From the NCBI GenBank assembly GCA_963422465.1, contig OY730171.1:1736001-1800000 (forward strand): DNA of 64,000 nt, written 5' to 3'. The position numbers and the translations under genes are program-made. Source of the stretch: Lichina pygmaea (Eukaryota > Ascomycota > Lichinomycetes > Lichinales > Lichinaceae). Positions 5,801 to 64,000 of the stretch are shown in pieces; position 1 is the stretch's first letter; each line of letters starts with the position of its first letter. Below the pieces are notes generated by a model. It worked only from the letters and a program-made list of their open reading frames with translations, made no database searches and was not told where the DNA came from.

Positions 5801-8123
5801 TTACACAAGAGCGGCTTCATTCAAAGTCCCAGCGTCTGCAGCACCGCTCTCGCCCTTCGATATTGTACTTGATCCCTCCCCGTCGGCGACGGAGCTGTCC
5901 GGTTCGTTCGAGCTCCCCGGGGCCCGCTGCAGCGGAGTGTCATCGTTGTAGAGACGGAGAAGCATGGCCCTAGACCCAAGTAAGCGGCGGCGGACCACCC
6001 AAAGTAGGCAGCTGAACATACTGCCGGTCCTCCTTTGGCAGCATCAAGTTGAGCGAAGCAATGCCTTTCCACAGGGGTAGAACCATTGGCTCTCTTGGAA
6101 GCATGTGTCAGCGAGAGTCGGCCATCTGCGTCCCATCCGTCGGTCATGATACTACGTACCGAAACCCATTGGGGTCATCGCTGGCCTCGATCCGCAGCAC
6201 GCAGCAGCCAGGGTCAATGTCCCTCACCCTCTCCCCAATCTCGCCCAGCTCTTTCCAGCTTTCATGGCTGATCTTGGGGAACATCTCGACGAGCAGTTTC
6301 TTGAGCGTGTCTCGCCGACAGAGCTTCACCGTCCGTTTGTCGCCTAGCCAGGGCTCGATGATGGACACACCCTCCATCTGTATCCTCCACCTGCAGGTGT
6401 TCAGCCGCTGGACGTCCTGGCTCACGAACATCTTGACGCCCGAGTGCACAAACTTGACGCTCTTCCCTTCGTTCTCCGTTAGGATATCGCGTGCCAGACC
6501 TGCGGTGTAGTAGATGGCTTTGTTCGGCTCGCCTGTGGCGTTGCGAACCAGGAAACGGTCTCGCGGAAATTTCGGAGAGATGTCGTAGAACGCCCATATG
6601 GAGTCGAGCTCCGCATGATCTGCTGCGAGGTATTTAAACGGCTCTTCAAACTGCTGCTTTCCTCGTTTTCTGTCGTTTGGCTGTGCGGCTGGCGTCTGAG
6701 TGCTGTCAGGTTCACCGTCCGCCCGGGAGGCAGGTGCTGCATCCACAGGCAGCATCTCCTGATCGGCCCGCAGTGCGTTTGGGTTCTCGGATGTGGTGTC
6801 CATGAGTGGGCGCTTGGGGTGGGCCTCTGCGGCTCCTCCATCATCGTCCTCCCGAGTCCGTTTCTTGGCCGGATTCGACCCAGATACGTCATCAGCTTGA
6901 TCGACCTGCATCGCATCTTCCGGAGCTTCGTCGGTTGGGGCAGGCGACTGCGACTGCTCGACAAGAGACGGCGGCGGATTCGCCGACCTCAAGCGTTCCG
7001 TGACGCTGGGGTCCGTGCCAGGCCAATGGCTCTCGAGCCAGGGTTGCCAGTCCCAGTCGACCCACTTTGTAAGCCCGCCAAAGTAACGGCTCCACCGCGG
7101 CCGGTGCCAGCGAAGAAAAGGCGATACCGCGGTACCTGGGAGCATGTCCCTTGCGTGCTGAGACCCAGAATCAGGACCTGCTTGGCCGACCTCTGCACGG
7201 GTGAAGTCGATGAGAACAACACAGGCCGGAGGGGTTTCCCCTGCACGGTATTGCACGATGATGTGCCGTGCTTTCAAATCGTGAGCGAGACCTCGAGCGT
7301 ATAGAGACGTCTCGGCCTCAACGAGACATTTCATAAGGCTCTGCCGTTCTACCTGGTTCAAGAGCACGGGATCCAGCCGACTCATGGGAGCGCCAGGCAC
7401 GCATCCTAACAGAACCAGTCGAACTGGGCGCAGCCCGCCGTCTGGCGTTTCCATATCGCAGGTGTAGGACCCATAGAACCTGGGAACGACAGAGCCCTGG
7501 AGAGTAGCCATCGCTCTGTAGGCTGCGACCTCGTGGGCGTAGCTGCAGTCCACGCTGATGAAAGGATCCGTCTCATCGTCCCGGTGGTCCCAGTAGAGGG
7601 GGTCGTAGAACTTGGCCACCATGGCCACATCCTGTGAGGCAAATCCGGGGATGTACCCACTATCCTCGAGTATTTTTACCGCAACCACTTGGGAACGGTA
7701 GCCGTCGTCCGCTCGAGTTCTGGAAAGGATCTCCAGCCGAAGAATCGCACTTTCTGTCCAACCGTCCAACGGAGAGTGGATATAACATCTTTGCAGCGGT
7801 GTCTTTTCCCGCCTCTCAAGTCGGGTGATGGCAGTTAGGTGGCGGTCCCTCTTCAGAGGCGCAGGAGGAGTATGGGGACGGATGAGCAGTTTCCGTCCGG
7901 TATCGTACGGGAAAGGAGGTTTGGGCTCGAGATAACTGGTCGAGGTGCAAGCAGCCAATCTGCGTTTTGCATCATCCTCCGGGTCCTTCCGGGTGCCATC
8001 GAGCATCATCTGCGCCATCTCAAGCTGGGGTCCCGTGGAGAACGCTCGACTTATGAATGTCCTATTGGAAAGTAGGACGGGAGTTTTCAGGCCGCCAGAT
8101 ATGGTCTTTCTAAGGAGAGACAT
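5801..8123 (-). CDS. Chimeric protein: kinase-like domain fused to the C-terminal domain of tRNA m5C methyltransferase NCL1
   Basis: Three exons (8123-6160, 6093-6022, 5969-5801; introns 66 and 52 nt) join in frame to 734 residues. Residues 1-30 are Arg/Ser-rich with no acidic residue and resemble a mitochondrial presequence (SRAFST). Residues about 110-360 are protein-kinase-like: AVK at 148-150, a degenerate catalytic loop HDLKARHIIV at 281-290 (His where the Mg-binding Asn normally sits) and IDF at 305-307. After a linker (about 395-490, with KKRTRED) comes the end of NCL1/Trm4/NSUN2: EEPFKYLAADHAELDSIW, FPRDRFLVRNATGEPNKAIYY, KFVHSGVKMF, LLVEMFPKISHESWKELGEIG, and in the small exons LPLWKGIASLNLMLPKEDRQ and AMLLRLYNDDTPL. 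The NCL1 introns are kept. No methyltransferase core is present; it lies on the other strand from 8293. I see the fusion directly; whether one mRNA is made is inference. Confidence 0.8.
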
Positions 8124-8292
8124 CCATCAGCAACGCCACACCAAAGCATCTAGGGCTTCACCCTGAACCGAACGGCAGTCCGGTCGATGCTGCTGTACGT
8201 ATCGTAGCAGTCCCAAGCTGTCGCACAACGGACTCAAACGTGTCTGCCCGCTCGGCAATTGCTGGACAGCTCCGGTGAAGCTCGTGCGGGTG
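8124..8292. promoter_or_regulatory. 169-bp bidirectional intergenic region between the chimera and the NCL1 N-terminal gene
   Basis: The start codons at 8123 (-) and 8293 (+) are only 169 bp apart, so both genes must share or overlap promoter elements. I see no clear TATA box. In the inversion model (see findings) this shared promoter travelled inside the inverted block. Confidence 0.55.
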
Positions 8293-10105
8293 ATGGGGAA
8301 ACGCGGCGGCAAGAGGGTAGAGATGCTCCGGAGGCAGTCTTGTGGGGGTTTTGGAGACTGATGGTTACGGTGTAGCCGCACCGAGGACGAGACTCACACC
8401 GAGGACGGAATTCACACCGGCCAGGTGTTCGCGCAGACTACGCCGAGATCTCGAAACACAACCATCTTTTCGAGGATTACTACAACGGACTCGGCATCGT
8501 AGATGAGGACGAACAAACCGATTTCTGGGCTGCGCTCCGGCGAGAACTGCCCAACAGCTTTCGCTTTACAGGATCCAGGAGGTATGAACCCCACGGATGA
8601 GTTTCGCGGGACAGTTTGAGGGCAGCGGGCACCGGCTGACAGCTCTCTGCAGCCATGCGCTTGCGGTGCGAGAACGCCTCGAGGACCACCACATCCCCGA
8701 GATCACCAAGATCGACCATTTCGACGGCGAGAAGGTGGAGCCGCCGTTCCCGATACCATGGTACCCGGATCGGCTGGCCTGGGCCATGACCACGCCCAAG
8801 AAGATCGTGCGCCGCTATGCGCCCTTTGCTACTTTCCAAAAGTTCCTGGTGGCCGAGACCAGCGTCGGCAACATCAGCCGGCAGGAGACGGTCAGCATGA
8901 TACCGCCGCTGCTGATGGGCGTCAAGCCGCACATGGCCGTGCTCGACCTCTGCGCGGCGCCCGGAAGCAAGGCGGCGCAGCTCATCGAGATGATCCATGC
9001 CGGAGAGGAGACCCGAGTCCGGGCTCGTCAGAGCCGCGTAGCGGACGAGCTGGAGGAAGCTGGCGCAACGGTGGAATTGGTAGCCGGACGCGAAGGTGGA
9101 GCGTCGGGGCAACACGAGGAGGTCGCCGATGACGGCCGGTCGACAGGGCTGCTCATCGCCAACGACGCGGACTACAGACGGAGCCACATGCTCATCCACC
9201 AGATGAAGCGCCTCAACTCGCCGAATCTGATCGTCACCAATCACGACGCGACCATGTATCCCCTGATACGGCTGCCGGCAAGCGCGCCAGCGGCGGCCGA
9301 CGACAAGCGGATACGGTATCTGAAGTTCGATCGGATCCTGGCCGACGTCCCTTGCTCGGGGGACGGGACGGTGCGGAAGAATCCGAACGTGTGGAGGGAT
9401 TGGAACCCGGGGCTCTCCCTGGGGCTGCATCAGACGCAGGTGCGGATCCTGACGCGCGCGTTGCAGATGCTGAAGGTCGGCGGCCGGGTCGTGTACTCGA
9501 CCTGCAGCATGAACCCGATCGAGAACGAGGCGGTGGTGGCGAGCGTCGTCGACCGCTGCGGCGGGCCGTCGAAGATCAGGATCGTCGACTGCGCCGGCGA
9601 GCTTCCGCTGCTGAGGCGAAGGCCGGGCCTCGGTCGATGGCGCGTCATCGACAAGCTCGGACGGGTGTGGAGCAGCTGGGACGCGGTCGAGCAGCAGCGA
9701 GGCGCGGCGGGGTCGGAAGGCCTGAGCCGTCTCTCCGAGAGCATGTTCGCTCCGAGCGAGGGGCCGGACGGCGGGCTCGCCGAGGACGACGATCGGATAC
9801 CGTTGGAGAGGTGCATGCGCATCTACGCTCACATGCAGGACACCGGAGCCTTTTTCATCGCCGTGCTCGAGAAGCTGTCGGAGTTCAAGGCTCGACCGGA
9901 GTCGGAGCCGCGGAAGAACCGGACCGGGCCACCGGCCGCTGCCCTTGCGACTGCCGCTGCAGTCACCACCACCGCCACCACCACCCTCGATGTTGACGCT
10001 GTTACCGCAACCGGTGCTGCTCCCGCCGATCCAGCCCTCGAAGGCGCGGTTCCGCTTTCCGCGGGGCAGGCCCCAGAGCAGGACCCCAACCTCATGCAGC
10101 CATAG
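8293..10105 (+). CDS. NCL1: Catalytic N-terminal part of tRNA (cytosine-5) methyltransferase NCL1/Trm4, lacking its C-terminal domain
   Basis: NCL1 methylates cytosine-5 at several tRNA positions in the nucleus using SAM. Exons 8293-8316, 8376-8581 and 8653-10105 (introns 59 and 71 nt) give 560 residues. The start MGKRGGKRPHRGRD reproduces the family's basic RG-rich N-terminus, followed by ISKHNHLFEDYYNGLGIVD, FWAALRRELPNSFRFTGSR and PWYPDRLAW. The SAM site is LDLCAAPGSKAAQLIEMI. Both catalytic cysteines are present, in DVPCSGDGT (motif IV) and YSTCSMNPIENEA (motif VI). The conserved part stops after GAFFIAVLEKLSEFKA near 9893. The last 65 or so residues are Ala/Thr/Pro-rich and unlike the family. 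The expected C-terminal domain, about 200-300 residues in relatives, is absent here and found in the divergent gene at 5801-8123. The 24-nt first exon is the least certain part. Confidence 0.88.
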
Positions 10106-10737
10106 AAGCCCAGAGCAAAGCTGTATTGTCGCTCTCCCGCTTTCCTACGAGATGACAAGACAATGGAAATGCACCCCAACCTCTCACTCGAGTGACTACC
10201 GCATGATGACTCTCATGAGCACAGACTCAGATATCCGTAAACCGGCCTAGACTTTTCCCCGGCGCTACCGGTACTTCCAACCCTCGGCATCTCGATCCCA
10301 CCCTCCCCTTCCGCGCCCCCGCGCAAGCTCTGTCTCCCTTTCTCTCTTGCGTCCCTTCCTCTTCTGCAAGGTGATACTGTACCTCCAAGAAGTGCCCGGC
10401 TCTAACAAAGTCCTATCGAAAGCCTGTCGGCCATCCAGCCTGCAAGCCTGCAGGTCTACAAGCCTACCACCCCGCCGCCCTACCACTCTGTCAGCCTGCC
10501 AGCATATCCATCATGCCAAACGATCAAAAAACATCTCTCACACCGACGAGTCTGGCTGCGTAGAGCATCTGTAGAAGGCTTGCGGAGGGGAGGTTACCCG
10601 GTGCTTACTTACCTACTCGCTTACGGTACCGTACGTGCTTGCTTGCTTACGGTAGCGGGGCATGGCTGTATAGCATAGCTCCATACCATAGCTATACTCG
10701 TACGCCGTAGGTCTGTACTAATTATAGCTTTATATCG
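10106..10737. other. Intergenic DNA, no gene seen
   Basis: Downstream of the NCL1 N-terminal gene. It holds pyrimidine-rich DNA, a degenerate CAAGCCTGC-type stretch near 10420-10505, and TA-rich imperfect repeats of ATAGCTCTATATC near 10665-10750 that recur past 12510. Confidence 0.6.
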
Positions 10738-10750
10738 TAGCTCTATATCA

Positions 10751-11348
10751 CCCGGCCAGACATCGGCACTCCACCGGGAGACCGGCGCCCTCAATCACTG
10801 TGGCAGGCCTACCAGCTGGCTGAACGGTGGTGTTGGGACCGCTGGAAGGAGCTTGACGGTGGCCCGCCAATCTCCCGCCGCCCGACCGACCCAGACCCCG
10901 GGGGAGGCTGGAAGCCAGAGGCAATGCCGTACCTATGTACGTACGTACGAGAAGACGGCCCTCCGCCTCCACTCCGGCCTCCCGAAGGCACACAGCAGCC
11001 TCCTGACTCAGATCCGGACGGGGAAGATTGGCCTTGCAGGCTTCCTGCACGGGTGCCGGGTCCCCGGCTTCGAGTCCCCGGCGTGCGCCTGCGGGTGGCA
11101 GTGGGAGACAGCGAAGCATGTCATAGTGGACTGCCCTCGCTGCTCCAGGGAACGCATGCAGCTGCGCCAGGCAGTTGCCTCTACTGACTTCCACCGGCTA
11201 TCCTCGGACCCCCGGGCAGCCGCCGCCCTCACGACGTGGTTCCTCCGGCTCAACCTCCTCCCCCAGTTCTCCTGGGCCCAGGAGCAGCTCCCCCCCCGCC
11301 TGACTGCTTCACAGTCTCTCTCCTTGTTTTACAGTATCTTGGTAGGTA
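10751..11348 (+). mobile_element. 5'-truncated Tad-like LINE, 3' end of ORF2 only
   Basis: Translation gives the post-reverse-transcriptase end of a fungal non-LTR element: LHSGLPKAHSSLLTQIRTGK, IGLAGFLHGCRVPGFESPAC, then the CCHC-like knuckle CACGWQWETAKHVIVDC, with an upstream piece AYQLAERWCWDRWKEL in another frame. A frameshift near a TACG repeat (about 10930-10950) and a missing 5' part make it a dead copy. It is GC-rich and not visibly RIP-mutated, unlike the LINEs after 35 kb, so it belongs to a different subfamily. The 13-bp TAGCTCTATATCA at 10738-10750 recurs at 12515-12527 and may be its target duplication, with the inverted-repeat element inserted later near its 3' end. Confidence 0.75.
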
Positions 11349-12347
11349 CCCGTGCCCATAGGGGGGCAATACCCCCCTCCTCCCGCCCCTTCGGTACGTC
11401 CGGAACACCCCCTCGTGCCCCTCCTCCGTAGGGGGTGTCTATCACCGGTACGATACTATCACCGGTCCAATACATTTTCTGGATAGAGTCAACTGCAATA
11501 CACATAACTCCACAACAAAGCGACCAAATAGAAATGTAAGTGGCTAGTTTGATTCCTCTACATCTCTTCTACAATCTGTGAAGATCTAGGCTTCTCTAGA
11601 TTTTTGTGGCATTACTGAGAAGTTACAGTAGTTATCGCTCAAGGATAGATTCCCAGCAACATCAATTTTATAACACTTATAACTCCGCAACCAGATAGAC
11701 AACCCATGATTTTTATGTGCCCATCTGATTCTCCTGCTCTTTTACTATCATCTCTGAGGCTACAAGCCTTTCTTGATCTTGCTGGCGTTGTTGAGTAGCT
11801 GCTGTAGCTACTGTAACTACCTTAGCTACCATAGAAACTTGAAGTTGCTCGCTTCACTTCTCTCAGATATGTGCACTTTTCATCACTCCTTCTTGGTTTA
11901 CAGTTCTTCCACTACCATGGCTTGAGAAAAGGCCTACAACTTCAGAGATTATAGTGCAGAAGCAGGCGAATCAAATAAGCCACTTACATTTCTATTCAGT
12001 GGTTGTGGTGTGGAGTTATATACTGTTGACCTGGGGGGTGGGAGAGACCAGTCCTCGCTCGCTGCCAGAGCCGAGGTCACGTGAGAAGAAGAGAATTTTT
12101 CCTGTATATTAGACTGCTAGATCACGACACAGAGAATCAAGAGAGTCTTACGCGCTGGAAGCCTCTTCCGTACGAACACTGACGTCGCACGCAGACCAGT
12201 CGCTTTACCGCTCCACATATACATTGTAGTTGACCCTATCTACAAAATGTATTGGACCGGTGATAGTATTGTACTGGTGATAGACACCCCCCTACGGAGG
12301 AGGGGGTGTTCCGGACGTACCGAAGGGGCGGGAGAAGGGGGCACGGG
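11349..12347. mobile_element. Non-coding terminal-inverted-repeat (MITE-like) DNA element
   Basis: Long inverted repeats begin CCCGTGCCC on both sides. The left arm (11349 to about 11560) matches the reverse complement of the right arm (about 11960-12347, minus an inserted LTR) over more than 180 bp, including CTTCGGTACGTCCGGAACAC and CACCGGTCCAATACATTTT. TA dinucleotides at 11347-11348 and 12348-12349 flank it, fitting a TA target duplication of the Tc1/mariner type. No transposase frame is present. The interior has a second, direct, diverged copy of the arm module (about 11678-11830, starting ATAACTCCGCAACCAGATAG). The superfamily is inferred only from the TA flanks. Confidence 0.8.
12024..12217. 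mobile_element. Solo LTR, 194 bp, inside the inverted-repeat element
   Basis: A TGT...ACA-bounded segment flanked by a perfect 5-bp duplication TATAC (12019-12023 and 12218-12222). It interrupts the right arm of the inverted-repeat element: the DNA on its two sides corresponds to continuous sequence in the left arm. An internal TATA-like stretch TGTATATTAG lies near 12103. No internal retroelement sequence remains, so it is a recombination relic. Family unknown. Confidence 0.8.
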
Positions 12348-27566: not shown

Positions 27567-29343
27567 ATGACCGAACCGCCATCCCTTTGGGATGACCCCC
27601 CACCAGCACGGACCTTCCACGAGAACAAGCCGACGCTGCTAGCTAGCTGGTGGTGTACCGGATTCGCCGTCACCATCATCCTCCTGCGCATCGGTTGTCG
27701 CTACATGCGCATGGAGCGCCTCTTCCGCGAGGACAAGGTCATGGCCGCTGCCGTCGTGCCGCTCCTGTTCCGCATGGGCCTGGCCCACGTTGTCTTGCTG
27801 TGGGGTACCAACAACGCCCAGACGACCAAGCTCGCCGACGAACAACTGTGGCATCGAGGGATTGGGAGTCGGGTGGTGCTGGCTGCCAGGATCATGTATG
27901 CGGCAACGTAAGTTTCGACCTCCGTCCTCCCCACTCCTGCCCCCGGTGTCGATTGGCTCACGTCAAACCTCGCGGGCAGGCTGTGGATCGAGAAGTGGAG
28001 CATCGTCGAGACGGTATCGCGCCTCGTCGCGCGGATCGCCGATCCTCTTTACAGGAAGATTATCGTAGCCTTGCGATGGTTCCTGCTGCTCACTTTCCTC
28101 GGCGTCGTAATCTCGACCCTCGCCGAGTGTAGACCACTGCGCCGAGCCTGGCAGGTCGTGCCCGACCCGGGCCCGCGTTGCCGGCTTGCCTATGCTCAGC
28201 TAGCAACGATGGGGACGTCGAGCGTCGTGGCAGATCTGATCTTGGTCCTGTTTCCTATTCCCGTCGTTCTCCGGTCACGAATGAGCTTTAGGAGGTACGC
28301 GCGCGGCATCGAGTGTTTGGGGTTGGGCACAGATTCGCTGACTAGCCTTTGCCAGGAAACTGGTCCTCATCCTTCTCTTTGGACTGTCGCTGGGCACAAC
28401 AGCAACGACGCTGTATCGCATGCCGACCTTGGTCTACCGTCGTGGCAACCAGCAGTACCGGACCCTGTGCGCGTCTATAGAGATCTTCATCGCCACCTCG
28501 GCTTCCAACATTCTGGTGCTAGGATCTTTCTCGCAGGAGCGCCCGCCCAAGAAACCACGGTTCCGGGTCGTGTCGTCCATTGCCTCGATCGCCCGAGCGC
28601 CCGAGCAACGGCCGACGGACGGCGAGAGCGAAGGCGCCACTCGCGGCGTTGGCGTGTACATGGATCCCGCCGTCGAGGACGCCGAGGTGGCGCACATCGC
28701 CCGGCCGTCGTCGATCACGGTCAACCGAGTTCGAGCGAAGATGGGCCCCATGGTGCAGGTAAACCGGCTCGACTGGCCGCTGCCGTCACCACCGATCTCG
28801 CAGAGTCCCTACGAGCGGCACGAGATTCTGCCGGCCCCGATGCTGCCCTCGCTGTCGACCCCAAGCCCGACCAACCCGTCCACGGTGTCGACGGCAGGGA
28901 TGACCTTCTTCGACGTCGGCGGCCTCCTCGAGGACGGCGGGGCTCCGGCCAGCGTGAGCTCGACCCCGATCATCGACCTCTACACGAGCACGCCCATCGT
29001 GGACTACTACGCCGGCTCGCCCACGCCGGAGATGATGCCGATGGAGTTCAGCGAGCTGCATCCGAGCGCGGCGCCGAAGATCACCCTGCAGGACCTCGGA
29101 GGCCTCCTGTCCCACCCAAAGGCCACACCGGATCTGCAGGCGAGTCCACCGCAGAGCTCGGTCAGCGCCAGCGAAGTCAGCACCGAGGACGAGCCCTATC
29201 ATCCCATCGCCGCGGACGGGCCGATCCGACCGCGGCGCGTCGAGACGTCCGAGTTCTCACACTACGCCCCTTCTCGGCCCTTTAGCTTCGAACCGCTGAA
29301 CGATTTAGGCGGTCTTCTTTCAGCCTACAATCGGACCCGATGA
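27567..29343 (+). CDS. Seven-transmembrane fungal integral membrane protein (rhodopsin/PTH11-like layout) with long cytoplasmic tail
   Basis: Exons 27567-27907, 27980-28294 and 28356-29343 (introns 72 and 61 nt) give 547 residues from the start MTEPPSLWDDPP; an in-frame ATG at 27492 would add 25. Seven hydrophobic segments fall in the first 300 or so residues: WWCTGFAVTIILLRIGC, AAAVVPLLFRMGLAHVVLLW, a segment around SRVVLAARIMYAATLW, WFLLLTFLGVVISTLAEC, TSSVVADLILVLFPIPVVL, LVLILLFGLSLGTTATTLY and IEIFIATSASNILVLGSF. Sequences such as LLWGTNNAQ and CRLAYAQLATMGT are typical of a widespread Pezizomycotina membrane-protein family with this layout. The tail of about 260 residues is Ser/Pro-rich and carries three copies of a D(V/L)GGLL motif (FFDVGGLLEDG, LQDLGGLLSHP, LNDLGGLLSAY). 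Ligand and partner are unknown. Exon joins are in frame and conserved residues cross both junctions. Confidence 0.88.
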
Positions 29344-42614: not shown

Positions 42615-45600
42615 TGTGACGAGGCAATGGCAGAGCAGAACTCAAGCCTAACTGATTCAGTAACCGTGACCTGGCTTGGCTTGAGACTTGAGACTTGGAT
42701 TGATGTACAAGACGAAAGACGAGAAAGGAAGAAAAAGAGAAAGGAAGAGAAGAAGCTGGGGGAGCAGGAGAAGTTCTTATAGGCAGGGGATCAGGCAACG
42801 GCGGAGCAAACAGGCAACAGTGCAGATGGAACTTCCCAGCAAGGTGCGTGACTTGTGCCAGATATGCAACTGGGCCAGAACCGTGACATTACCCCCCTCC
42901 TTCACATCGCGAACTCCTGTGAGCCTCAGGCCGCTCGTGGGCGTAGTTCCGTGGCTGTGGTTTCCTTGGGTATTTCTCATGGAAGTTGTAGATGGCGTCT
43001 TTGGCGTTGTCAAGATGCTCAATAGACTCTTCAGTGGCATCTTCAATTGGCCATCCGGACCATTTGACCAGGTACTTGAACTTCTGTCGAGACGTTGCTG
43101 GCTTGGAGTCAAGGATTTCTTCAACCTGGAACTCTTCATCTGTGTCTTGACCAATGACAGGGCCAGGGTGTTCATTTGATTGGCCAGAGATAGGATTAGC
43201 AGGTGTCAGACGTAGAAGGGAAACGTGAAAGACAGGGTGGATCTTGAGAGTGTGTGGAAGCTCCAGATGGCAGGCACGGCTTCCGACTGTCTTCAACACC
43301 TTGAATGGTCCAATCCACTTGTCGTCAAGCTTTTTGCATGGGCGGTGTGTCCTGATGTTCTTGGTATTCAGCCAAACAAGATCTCCAGTTTGATAGGACG
43401 GTGACGGGACTTGATGCAAATTGGCGGCGTGAGCTTGAGCTTCCTGGGATAGTCGGAGTTCCGCTTGCAACTGTTCCAGAATCTGTGTCATTTCTCCAGA
43501 GATTTCCATAGCATCTTGGTTGCAGGCTTCACTCGTGGGTGTGATGCTGAGCCGTGGATGGAACCCTTTGTTGGCGAAGAACGGTGACATGCCAGAGGAA
43601 TCAGACTGGGAGTTGTTCTGCGTGAACTCTGCCAGAGGAAGCCATTGGACCCAGTCATCTTGGAGATAGTTGACATAGGATCTCAGGTAGCGTTCAAGCT
43701 CCTGATTCTCTTGTTCTGTCTGACCATCTGTCTCTGGGTGGTGTCCTGAGGATAGTCGTAGCATGACATCAAGATGGGCACAGAGTGCTTTCCAGAATAA
43801 GCTGACAAACTGACCTCCTCTGTCTGAGACAATGCTCCTGGGTAAGCCATGGGTACGGACAACAAACTGGATGAACATCCGGACAAGATGCGAGGTTGTC
43901 ATCTCAGCACATGGCACAAAGTGGTGTTCTTTGGTGAGACGGTCAGTGATGACCCAGATGTGCTTGGCACCAGGGAAGCAGGTATCTCTTGACTTGGGCA
44001 AGTCAGTAATGAAATCCATAGCCAGATCCTGCCAACATTGCTGAGGCACGGGAAGAGACAGCAGCTCTCCTTGGCGATCACGGGCAGGCTTTGCTTGAGA
44101 GCAGACATGACAATTCCTGATGTACTGCCGTATGATGTTCACCATCTTTGGCCAATAGTACCAACAAGACAGAAGATTGTGGGTCTTGGCAATCCCAGTG
44201 TGGCCAGCCATTGCTTGGTCATAGGCTTCTTGGAACAGGCGTAGGCGTAGCTCATCGTTCTCAGGGATCCAGAGTCGGTTCTTGTAGAAGAGACAGTCAT
44301 TTTCCAAGCTGCAGTCTGAGAGAGACACTTCTCGACTGTGCCTGACACCATCCCTTAGCATCTGTGACACTGTTGCCACTGGATCACCTTCAGCAAGGTT
44401 GTTATAGGCAGCTTGGATGACGTCTGAAAGAGGTGTAGTATCAGGTTCAGTGTCAACTGGTGCAGCTTCTGAACGTCTCAGGATCCGGATGGGCTTGACT
44501 TGAACCTCTGAATGTGCAAGATTCTTGGGCTTGAGGACGACTTGCTCCCTGAAGTCTTGACAGGGATCACTGTCTGACGGAAGGTCTTGGGAACGTCGAG
44601 TGAGGGCGTCAGCCTTGCACTGACTGCCTGGACGGTAGCTGATCTTGAAATTAAAGTGTGACAAGAACTCGCTCCAACAGGCTTGACGGCGGGAAAGGCG
44701 CTTTGACGACATGAAGTACTCCAAGTTCTTGTGATCAGAGATCACTTTGACAGGTTCTGGAGATCCTTCAAGCTCTGCTCGCCATTCTTCAAAGGCACGG
44801 ACAATTGCCAGCAACTCTTTGTTGTAGATCTCGTAGTTGCATTCTGCTGGCAGGTGGCGGCGTGACAAGAAGGCAACAGGGCGTAGAACTGCTTCATGAT
44901 CTGGCTGTGACAGGACAGCACCAGAGACGTAGTCAGAAGTGTCAGTCTCAACAACACACTCCTTCTCCGGATCAAAGTGCTGCAGGATGGGTGCAGTGCT
45001 GAACGTCTTCTTGATGCTTTCAAACAAGCACTGCTCTGGGGTTTCCCACTTGAAGGCAACATTCTTCTTGGTCAGAGCTGTGAGCAGGGATGCAAGCTTG
45101 GCAAAGTCTTTGATGAACCGGCGGTAGAAGTTTGCAAAGACAATGAAGCTCTGCACTTCCTTGAGACTGGCAGGAGGATTCCACTCCTTGATGGCGTCAG
45201 TCTTGGCTGGGTCCATGCTCACAGATCCGGGTCAGCTATCTTCAGTGGCAGACTGAATGATGAGGCCAAGGTACTTGACTTGATGCACTTCAAAGTCACA
45301 CTTGGAGATGTCAACTTGCAGGCTTGCGTCTCGTAGTCGACTGAGAACAAGCTTGACGTGCTTCTGGTGTTCCTTGAGTGTCTGACTGTAGACAAGGATG
45401 TCATCCACATAGGCAGTGCCAAAGACGTCAAGGATGTCAGGTCCCAAAACATCATTGATGTAGTTCTGGAACGTGCTTGGAGCATTGGCAAGACCAAAGG
45501 GCATGACAAGGTATTCGTAGAGGCCTGAGCGTGTGCGGAACGCAGTCTTCCATTCTTCACCTTCCTTCATCCGGATACGGTTGAAGGCACCAACAATGTC

Positions 45601-60642: not shown

Positions 60643-61140
60643 GTTAGAGATTGTTTGGCACTGGTTGGGTGTTTCCTGTCTGCAGAGTACTGCCAGAAAG
60701 AAGAGTCACCTGGTTTCCCAGCAGTAATAATCTAGTCCTGGGACCAATCCCCAAGACTAGACTTTCCTGGGCAGCTTTTTCCAACTAAGCTCTGGGCAAA
60801 GCTAGAAGTATTAACCTAGACTAGGGACCAGACCCCCTATCTAGACTTTCCTTGAGCCAAAGACTCTGCTAGCTCCAGAGTCAGTCAGACTCTAACTATT
60901 CCTCTTATCCTAAGACTCTCTCTCTCTGGTTGTGGGTAGATTGCTGGTTGTTGAAGAAGAAGATCGTGGATTCAAGATCACAACTTTTGACAAACAGGTG
61001 TGATTCTCAAAGGTGATGGGTTTTCACCTTAAGGTTTGGGTGGTTTCAGAGAGGAACTCAGCTGTTTTCCAGAACATATGACAAATTGTGGTGTTTGTCA
61101 AAAATGATGGTCCTTGAAGAACGTGGTTCTGGGAAGAGTT

Positions 61141-62939
61141 GTGAGTCCACCTTGAACTCTATCATAAGCTTCTGAGATATCCAGAGAAAGAAGACTGGCT
61201 ACCATTCCTTCCTTCCAGACTTTTTCAACTTGGGAAGTGAGTAGAAATAGTGCAGACTCAGTTGATCTTCCTTTTCTGAAGCCTATCTGGATTTCTGGTA
61301 GTAGGTTTTCTTTCTCAGCCAGTTCACTTAGCTTTGTGGCTGCCAGAGCTTCCATCAGCTTCCCAATTGTGTTGAGAAGTGCTATTGGCCTCCAAGCTTT
61401 GGCATAGCAATAGGATCCTTTGCTAGACTTTCTCAAGCATATTGTTCTGGCTGCTTTGTATCTGTCAGGGAAATATTCTAGCTTCCAGCAGGCCTCCAGA
61501 ACTTTGGCTATCTTTTCATTGAAAGAGTCTCCTAATACCTTTAGAAATCCATTGGGTAGAGTGTCTTTCCCAGGAGCTGTAAAAGGTTTTTTCTTTTTCA
61601 GAATATTGTGGATATCTTCTTTGGAGATTTCCTGAGATAGCTGGTGTTGTTGGTGGTTGGCTGGCTGGTCCTGGGATTCTGGTACTGGCTGGAGAGGTAG
61701 AGGGAAGAACTGGGTTTTGAATACTTCTACCTTTTCTGTGAAAGTTCTGGCAGTTTCTCCATCTTCCTTTGTGAGCTCTGGAACAATTGGAAGTTCTGGT
61801 GGTTTGCCAGCTTTTTCTTTACCCCACTTGGCTATTTTCCAGTGCTTTTGTGTTTCAGCCAGGTTCTGGAGTTGTTCTCTGAATGTCTTTCTTTTAGCAT
61901 TCTTGATCAGGTGTCTCTTTTCCTTTATTACCTTTTCAAGTTTGTAGACTGGTTCTTGGTTTTGGAAGACTTTTCTTCTTAGTTTTCTTTCCTCTTTAAT
62001 TTTCTCTTTAATCTCTTGGTTCCACCAGGGAACAGTGTACTTTGAGTCTCTCAGAGGTCTTGTTGTCTTGTCAGCCAGTTCTTGAAGAGCTTTGTCCAGA
62101 TTCTCCAGATAGCTGTCCACTTCCTCTCTGTTAAGTAGTGGTGGAATAGGGGGAAGATTCTTAGCTTCTTTCTTGACTTGGTCCAGATCTAGTGTTCTCC
62201 AGTTTCTTTGGTGGGTTCTGGCTTTCTTTGGTGTTTCCAGACTTAGAATTGTCTGAACTGGTCTATGGTCTGAACCTGTGTAGAAGTCTAGGTTAATCTG
62301 GGAAGAAATAAAGAAATTAAGAAGTGATATAGAAATAAAAGATAAGTCAATAGCAGAGGAGGGAGGCTCTGCCAGTGTTCTTGCTCTTGTTGGTGTGAAA
62401 GGTACTATTGCCAGCTCTAGTCCTTGATCATCTGTGAGTTCTTTGAACTTAGTAGCTAGTTCAGAGTAGAGTTGGGAGGATTTTGACCAGGATGGGTGGT
62501 GGAGGTTTGAGTCAGTCAGAAGAATATGTTCTCCTTCTTTCTCCAGTGCCTGGGCCAGTACATCCAGTAGAGCTTCTACTGATACTCTGTAGTTTTCCTG
62601 GCTTGTGGGTGTGAAGTACAGGTTATGTACCCAGAACACTTTTGCTTGCACTCTTATCTCCAGTGATGTTAAATCCTTGCTCCAGAACACAGGGGTTATA
62701 GCTGACCTCTGTATTCTTCTGTTGATTAGAACCAGAGTTCTCCCTAACACTTGGTCTTGAAGAGGGTAGAAGGCTGAGAAGACTGTTGAGGTACTTGTTT
62801 CCTGGTATAGATTTCTCCATGGTTCTTGAAGTGCAATCAGATCCACTTCCTGGAGTCTGGGGTTAGCTAGTAGAAGATCTTGACATATCTGGCTTTTCTG
62901 TACATTATACTGGAGAAGGTTGAGAGTTGGTGTACTCAT
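61141..62939 (-). pseudogene. LINE-E ORF2, N-terminal 600 residues, truncated in the reverse transcriptase
   Basis: Starts MSTPTLNLLQYNVQKSQ; one stop-free frame of 1.8 kb. Endonuclease: IALQEPW, LLTDSNLHHPSW, GSDHRPV. Reverse transcriptase start: RPIALLNTIGKLMEALAA, IGFRKGRSTESALFLLTSQV, SLDISEAYDRV. The active-site FADD block is missing because of the junction at 61140. The open frame over this length suggests less RIP damage than in LINE-B. Confidence 0.88.
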
Positions 62940-62945
62940 CAAGCC

Positions 62946-64000
62946 TCTGGGTTAGAATCCACAAGTATCTCAAAAGAGTTTTGTTTTGGAAGATTAGTGG
63001 TAGTCTTCAGGTTTTGCAGAGAGGTTGCTTGAGAGCTAAGTCTTGCACTTGATCTAGTTCTCACCAGCTCTCTCTGTTTTCTTTTCTTCCTATCCTCTCT
63101 ATCAGATAGATTAGGGCCACTTCCAGTATTGGTGGTCTGGCTTGGAGAGAAGATAAAAGTGGAAAAGATGTTTTCTGGAGTAGTGTATCTTCCAGGTCTG
63201 GTGAGCCAGAATTCTCTAGCTTTCTGTGTAGCTTCCTACTTTTTAGGGCAGACTTTTTCCCAAGCAGAGTGCTTCCCTCCACAGTTAGCACATTTGGGAA
63301 CTAGCTTTTCTTGAGGAATTAGGTAATCTCTTCTGGCATGTTTTCCTCTATATGCCAGGCACTGTGCTTGAGCTTGGCAGGTTCTTGCCTGGTGTCCAAA
63401 CTTTGAGCATTTGTAGTATTGGACCACTGATGTATCCAGAAGTGCTGGCTCTACTTCATGGATCATGTGGCCAAGTACAACTCCTCTTTTGATTAGTAGA
63501 TTAGCTTGCTTAGATGTTGCAAGATCTATGTGCAGAGATGTCACAGGTTTCTTGAGAAGTTTGGACTTTCTGGTCCAGTAGGTTCTCAGGATTTTGACCT
63601 GGTTTTCTATACCAGAGTTTTGTCTGAAGATAGTCTTAGTTGTCTCTTCCAGGTTATCTGGGTTAAAGTTCTTTGTTTGAACTCTATGAACCATGACTGG
63701 GAAGATTCTGGAAGAGATCTTAGCTTCTTCAGAGAACACTGCAGAGATCCAGTCTTTGTTCTGTTCTAGTTGGGTCTTGGCTGAGGGAGATTCCAGAAAG
63801 ATGATAATATCACCAGAAGAGAGCTTTCTGACTGCTCTGATATCTTTCTGGCAAGATGTAGAGACTTTGTTCTTGATAGCTTGCACAAGCTGGGAGGGTG
63901 TTCTGTTTCCTGCCTATGCTATTTGGACTCCAGGTCTGATAGTAATCTCACTGAAGATTCTCTGGGGAACTGGAATTTCCTGAACTGTAGTTTTCTGGAC
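62946..64000 (-). pseudogene. LINE-E ORF1, C-terminal part, with one internal stop
   Basis: Open from the window end to 63236: RAVRKLSSGDIIIFLESPS, KKPVTSLHIDLATSKQANLL, then knuckles YKCSKFGHQARTC, a degenerate one with CLAYRGKHARRDY, and CANCGGKHSAWEKVC. A TAG near 63236, probably from CAG, interrupts the frame. The same frame then continues (AREFWLTRPGRYTTPENIFS) to a TGA just before the ORF2 start. The N-terminus is beyond the window. Confidence 0.78.

Follow-up and report, generated by a model that had tools for sequence, protein, structure and literature searches.

The sole detected NCL1/Trm4 gene of Lichina pygmaea is divided into two head-to-head genes on opposite strands

Introduction

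Can the catalytic and the RNA-binding parts of one tRNA methyltransferase reside in two different genes, and if so, how did they get there and how does the enzyme act? This question is raised by a locus of Lichina pygmaea at which the only Trm4/NCL1/NSUN2 detected in the genome is encoded by two head-to-head genes on opposite strands. The window, i.e. the whole stretch of DNA that was analysed, comprises 64,000 nucleotides (bases 1,736,001-1,800,000 of contig C3) of a genome of 32.47 Mb in 8 contigs. An earlier note on this DNA had proposed that a single inversion around a shared promoter exchanged the 3' ends of NCL1 and of a divergent, kinase-like neighbour.

Archaeal Trm4 and bacterial RsmB/RsmF are not known to possess the C-terminal module of NSUN2, and short archaeal Trm4 enzymes methylate tRNA with the core alone. 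Trm4/NSUN2 of yeast and human modifies C34 or C40 in an intron-dependent and C48/C49 in an intron-independent manner, while fission yeast splits the tasks of Trm4 between Trm4a and Trm4b, as outlined in PMC11408192. Fusion and fission of genes are common in fungi, with 1,680 events in 12 species according to PMC2557144. In the modelling paper PMC10249782, the PUA domain of human NSUN2 is located at residues 54-147; unlike that paper, we follow the C-terminal PUA_NSUN2 of Pfam. The accessible part of PMC2584109 holds nothing further on the C-terminus of NCL1, and a published split NCL1 was not found among the matches listed for the open-licence PMC literature (titles and abstract openings).

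Results

Two divergent genes share the parts of NCL1

The features of the locus are given below in window coordinates.

8293-10105, plus strand: NCL1/Trm4 methyltransferase core gene; exons 8293-8316, 8376-8581 and 8653-10105; 560 aa; stop in the linker
9898-10105, plus strand: new C-terminal tail of the core, NCL1 linker first, then Ala/Thr/Pro-rich up to the stop
8124-8292, no strand: start-to-start gap (ATG to ATG) of 169 bp between both start codons
5801-8123, minus strand: fused gene; exons 8123-6160, 6093-6022 and 5969-5801; 734 aa; presequence-like start, kinase-like half (by motifs), linker, pre-PUA and PUA
6969-8123, minus strand: non-NCL1 half of about 385 aa, kinase-like by motif alone
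6654-6968, minus strand: linker that contains the basic stretches KKRTRE and RKRGK, assigned by comparison with intact homologues in the same region
6162-6653, minus strand: NCL1 pre-PUA and initial portion of PUA (PF25376, PF25378); 37 of 38 columns conserved to at least 98% kept
5801-6159, minus strand: C-terminal introns 6159-6094 and 6021-5970 with the end exons, by splice model

The frame on the plus strand matches PF01189 (E 7.3e-32) and contains both catalytic cysteine motifs, DVPCSGDG and STCSMNP. Its top PDB matches are human NSUN2 (9z2p, E 1.4e-94; NSUN2 chains E 1e-93 to 1e-94), and by both searches it carries an RsmB/F-type methyltransferase domain that is nearest to NSUN2. Two GT-AG introns (8317-8375 and 8582-8652) are removed to give the protein of 560 aa, from which pre-PUA and PUA are absent. 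These are located in the other gene on the opposite strand, where a single open frame (8126-6144) comprises, in this order, some 385 unrelated residues, a linker, Pre-PUA_NSUN2 (E 7e-28) and PUA_NSUN2 (E 8.3e-10). Removal of the introns 6159-6094 and 6021-5970 restores FREPMVLPLWKGIASLNLMLPKEDRQAMLLRLYNDDTP, which resembles the ends of intact homologues. Profile matches, PDB matches and splice models hence agree with the layout first described for this locus, namely a core with both catalytic cysteines at 8293-10105, the C-terminal domain of NCL1 with its introns as the end of a minus-strand gene, and 5' halves spaced by 169 bp.

Residues 1-34 of the fused protein (8123-8022, minus strand) resemble a mitochondrial presequence, with five K/R and no D/E, a filter that was passed by 3 of the 85 ATG-led frames of the window, the fused frame included. 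Another start, at residue 36, has a stronger context (GAGATGG), and its use would, speculatively, permit a second form of the protein in the cytosol or nucleus.

The cut lies in the linker of NCL1

The tail of the core starts with RKNRTGPPAAALA, which aligns with the NCL1 linker of the homologue P0003 and, more loosely, with those of P0012 and P0004. For this reason the breakpoint would be situated further 3', and the tail is not simply the old end of the partner gene, as had been supposed for the Ala/Thr/Pro-rich stretch from about 9900. On the minus strand, the junction is probably close to the 5' end of the linker at 6654-6968, a position that is approximate and not defined to the base. Given that the intact sister rows read through the linker in a single frame, an intron is not expected there. 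In a structural model of the intact P0007 (mean pLDDT 72, pTM 0.73), the linker at about residues 491-621 is mostly below pLDDT 50 and is flanked by better-modelled parts; the cut of the window falls within this stretch of low confidence, between the core and the C-terminal module.

NCL1 is single-copy in the genome searches

PF25376 and PF25378 have one match each in the whole genome at E <= 1, both at the split locus, and PF01189 has three, at the split locus, C2:4696326 and C3:2888428. The core of the window as protein query scored 1146 bits against itself, 47.5 and 19.4 against the latter two places and 12 at a third one. Because of these low scores, C2:4696326 and C3:2888428 are assigned to other members of the family, which we take to be Nop2-like and Rcm1/NSUN5-like. 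With the fused frame as protein query and with the DNA of 9880-10740, only the self-match was obtained. Thus a second NCL1 elsewhere, which the earlier note had suggested looking for, was not found in the genome by family profiles or by protein and DNA searches that scored the top candidates of a first pass.

Neighbourhood of the locus

The NCL1 C-terminus is directly followed downstream by a CDC45 gene in the same orientation (5247-2411, minus strand; PF02724, three frames). To the right of the core gene, 0.6 kb beyond its stop, an open frame on the plus strand (10679-11428) without a Pfam match is, by its reading, presumably the end of a LINE reverse transcriptase, and inverted repeats at 11373-12341, with arms of 42, 69 and 88 nt that are 78-98% complementary, resemble a fold-back element. 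The fungal rhodopsin domain (PF20684) is found in a plus-strand frame at 27912-29282. An AT-richer block at 36852-63913 contains at least one frame of the Ty3 type (42892-45231; RNase H, integrase, chromodomain) and at least one of the LINE type (61101-62951; endonuclease, reverse transcriptase).

The partner protein resembles a kinase in its motifs

In the half of the fused protein that is not derived from NCL1, we take VVAVKI, HDLKARHIIV and VVLIDF to be kinase-like motifs, and we assume that the natural end of fungal proteins of this type lies near WVDWDWQPWLE..ERLRSAN, at about residue 385. This half matched neither a Pfam family at E 10 nor an NCBIfam family at E 1, and its two PDB sequence matches at E 10 include no kinase. 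The AlphaFold2 model of the fused frame was poor and unusable (pLDDT 41, 14 rows); to the eye, the order of strands and helices in this low-confidence model looks kinase-like. A Foldseek search with it returned 0 matches at E 0.001, and rows of MerTK kinase at E 0.4-0.9 were consequently not counted. The earlier description of the partner as kinase-like was therefore not confirmed by any family or structure match, and we use the term kinase-like for its motifs. No paralogue of this half was detected in the genome by protein search, and a DNA pattern for DWDWQP matched the window itself as its single place in the genome. By codon usage the annotated frame of the kinase-like half is the best of six, narrowly (-0.070 vs -0.094), and in the linker and in the tail of the core another frame outscores the annotated one.

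The split recurs on other contigs and the core-only form in a second species

Methyltransferase, pre-PUA and PUA are joined in one chain in 115 of the best 120 of 4067 core homologues, and the five without PUA are P0002, P0003, P0006, P0008 and P0069. The relatives of the locus point to a filamentous ascomycete, and the best-scoring named homologue is that of Sclerophora amabilis (62%). P0002 consists of four member sequences on six contigs no longer than 4,282 bp, is spliced at both core introns and differs from the spliced core model of the window in 1 of 560 residues; as P0009 and P0020 from the same source read across introns, P0002 is most likely RNA-derived. P0003 belongs to a second species and has 506 aa, 84% identity to the core of the window and no PUA domains; it is located on a contig of 3,100,742 bp and has the last residues DPNLMQP in common with the core of the window. 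The unspliced fused frame is represented by P0001 on two contigs, which with at most 188,170 bp are not the contig of the window. An assembly error or chimera at both junctions is very unlikely, since the frames across them recur on other contigs (two for P0001, six for P0002) and the ending of the core recurs in another species, so that we regard the split as genuine.

No PUA partner of P0003, P0006 or P0008 was found among the matches listed (ORFs of 253-803 aa, all 711 candidates scored). With the fused frame as query (ORFs of 362-1153 aa), P0001 was the only match and no orthologue was found; this search drew its words from the first 500 residues and scored the best 7999 candidates, so that it may overlook more remote relatives of the kinase-like half. 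Among the matches listed in this search and in that for PUA partners, there was no spliced version of the fused gene on its own. PUA proteins without methyltransferase make up 13 of the 120 listed, P0001 aside, and all 13 start in the core or linker of NCL1, none in a kinase-like half.

Both halves most likely descend from one NCL1

The window, P0002, P0003, P0006 and P0008 form one clade in a quick tree of 196 rows (SH-aLRT 95) and in a careful tree of 27 rows (95/89), with one change in 97% of 200 bootstrap trees. An alternative that unites the window with P0002, P0003 and P0004, the latter being nearer than P0006 and P0008, was not rejected (p-AU 0.053). P0069, which breaks off inside EEPFKY, is placed elsewhere in the tree. 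P0006 and P0008 stop at other points of the linker than the core of the window and may be incomplete, cut at the ends of their contigs. The core-only state is firmly common to the species of the window and that of P0003, and it probably extends to the small clade.

The intact P0004, P0012, P0017 and P0052 adjoin the core clade (88 in the 196-row tree, 97/94 in the 27-row tree), and the C-terminus of the window groups with the same four in a tree of 208 rows (SH-aLRT 92, not starred). Since core and C-terminus take matching places, both most likely stem from one native NCL1. Together with the kept introns this upholds the identification of the piece as the native C-terminus, and a transferred or duplicated domain is less likely, as the same intact rows adjoin both halves.

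Both halves appear to be under constraint

Conservation was referred to 150 intact rows out of 213 proteins, the remainder of which failed the coverage filter, and the C-terminus was scored over 163 residues, with the last two exons outside the scoring. All 83 core columns that are invariant in the intact rows are kept. Among columns conserved to at least 98%, the window keeps 125 of 125 in the core and 37 of 38 in the C-terminus; the corresponding values are 149 of 152 and 48 of 50 at 95%, and 174 of 181 and 71 of 74 at 90%. The identity of the C-terminus relative to the core is no outlier (residual z -0.9; 27 of 150 rows are lower). In a leave-one-out comparison, fewer conserved residues than in the window were counted in only 9 of 151 rows for the C-terminus and in 28 of 151 for the core. 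The retention of nearly all invariant residues scored suggests that both halves are maintained, and a loss of the enzyme, which had been considered as one outcome of the split, looks unlikely. The path from P0003 to the window amounts to 0.1 changes per core site; given that P0003 is already core-only, the constraint on the C-terminus would have persisted in the line of the window beyond that speciation at least.

Discussion

The domain composition of the two genes documents a fission of NCL1/Trm4 that we consider inherited, while its cause has to be inferred. With the RNA-binding half in another gene, the enzyme must either consist of two chains or dispense with that half. As overall explanation we prefer, at a probability of about one half, an inherited fission after which the PUA module would still contribute in trans to tRNA methylation, both chains together forming a non-covalent Trm4; this would be our first choice. 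The fact that the module was kept argues for its continued use. The two-chain reading is weakened by the lack of a PUA partner in any relative and of a spliced fused copy among the matches listed. Moreover, a mitochondrial presequence would separate the two halves unless the later start is used.

The main rival, which we rate as a serious possibility of lower probability, is that the core alone methylates tRNA and that the PUA module was adopted by the neighbour as an RNA-binding domain, perhaps in mitochondria. The core-only P0003, P0006 and P0008 without partner among the matches listed, the core seen spliced in P0002 and the presequence-like start of the fused protein are in line with such a division, as are core-sized relatives with solved structures that were retrieved by PDB sequence search, e.g. 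MJ0026 (3a4t, 274 aa). However, the scored C-terminus is about as conserved as expected of a part of NCL1, and partners may have been missed owing to the limits on ORF length.

Concerning the origin of the split, the fission that we favour would go back to a single ancestral rearrangement that cut the linker of NCL1 between the methyltransferase and the pre-PUA/PUA module. In its simplest form, a segment of about 3 kb that included the two 5' halves and their promoter would have been inverted, with one break in the linker of NCL1 and the other in the 3' part of the divergent neighbour or past it. In this one step, the core would have gained a new stop and become a separate protein, the neighbour would have acquired the PUA module and its introns as C-terminus, and both genes would have kept their promoter. 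We infer such an exchange of 3' parts between two divergent genes as the simplest geometry, because one inversion would yield the adjacency, the head-to-head order and the kept introns at once. As potential drivers of an inversion, only short, chance-like repeat pairs were found near the breakpoints, e.g. 6955-6972/9726-9743 (18 nt, 78%). A stepwise origin, in which a stop in the linker was followed by the transfer of the C-terminus to the neighbour, is compatible with any functional reading and could explain why P0006 and P0008 end elsewhere in the linker, with no partner among the matches listed. Both proteins are, however, possibly truncated at contig ends, and since adjacency, gene order and introns follow from one inversion, we consider the stepwise course less likely, though possible.

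It is improbable that the PUA piece is a fossil that is out of use and has not yet decayed. Although the matches listed include no spliced version of the fused gene on its own and the conserved residues are slightly fewer than in most rows, the open frame and the splice sites are intact and 37 of the 38 columns are kept. Furthermore, the core was already free when P0003 diverged, and an unused frame would since have had sufficient time to decay.

The locus shares with Trm4/NCL1/NSUN2 of fungi and animals the core and C-terminal domains, both cysteine motifs and the place in the tree, but it encodes two chains in divergent genes and has the C-terminus on an unrelated protein. Like archaeal Trm4 and bacterial RsmB/RsmF, it has a catalytic domain without the C-terminal module of NSUN2, which here was cut off and yet kept in another gene. 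Trm4a and Trm4b of fission yeast, as summarized in PMC11408192, likewise spread the work of Trm4 over two genes; there, two homologues share the sites, whereas here one enzyme is present in two unlike parts. The fusion and fission events of fungi outlined in PMC2557144 are broadly of the same kind, but in our case the 3' ends were apparently exchanged over a shared promoter, and a single-copy tRNA enzyme was affected.

NCL1 is one chain in 115 of the best 120 homologues, and four of the other five group with the window. That a whole fungal clade uses a tRNA m5C enzyme whose two chains are encoded by divergent genes, the RNA-binding module residing on a kinase-like, possibly mitochondrial and nuclear protein, is a doubtful extension of our preferred reading. 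If it were true, tRNA methylation could be coupled to the signal or the place of the kinase-like protein. A PUA domain that was separated from catalysis and kept through at least one speciation represents a natural experiment on the C-terminal domain, by which the dependence of C34, C40, C48 and C49 on PUA, the action of this domain in trans and its role on another protein can be addressed.
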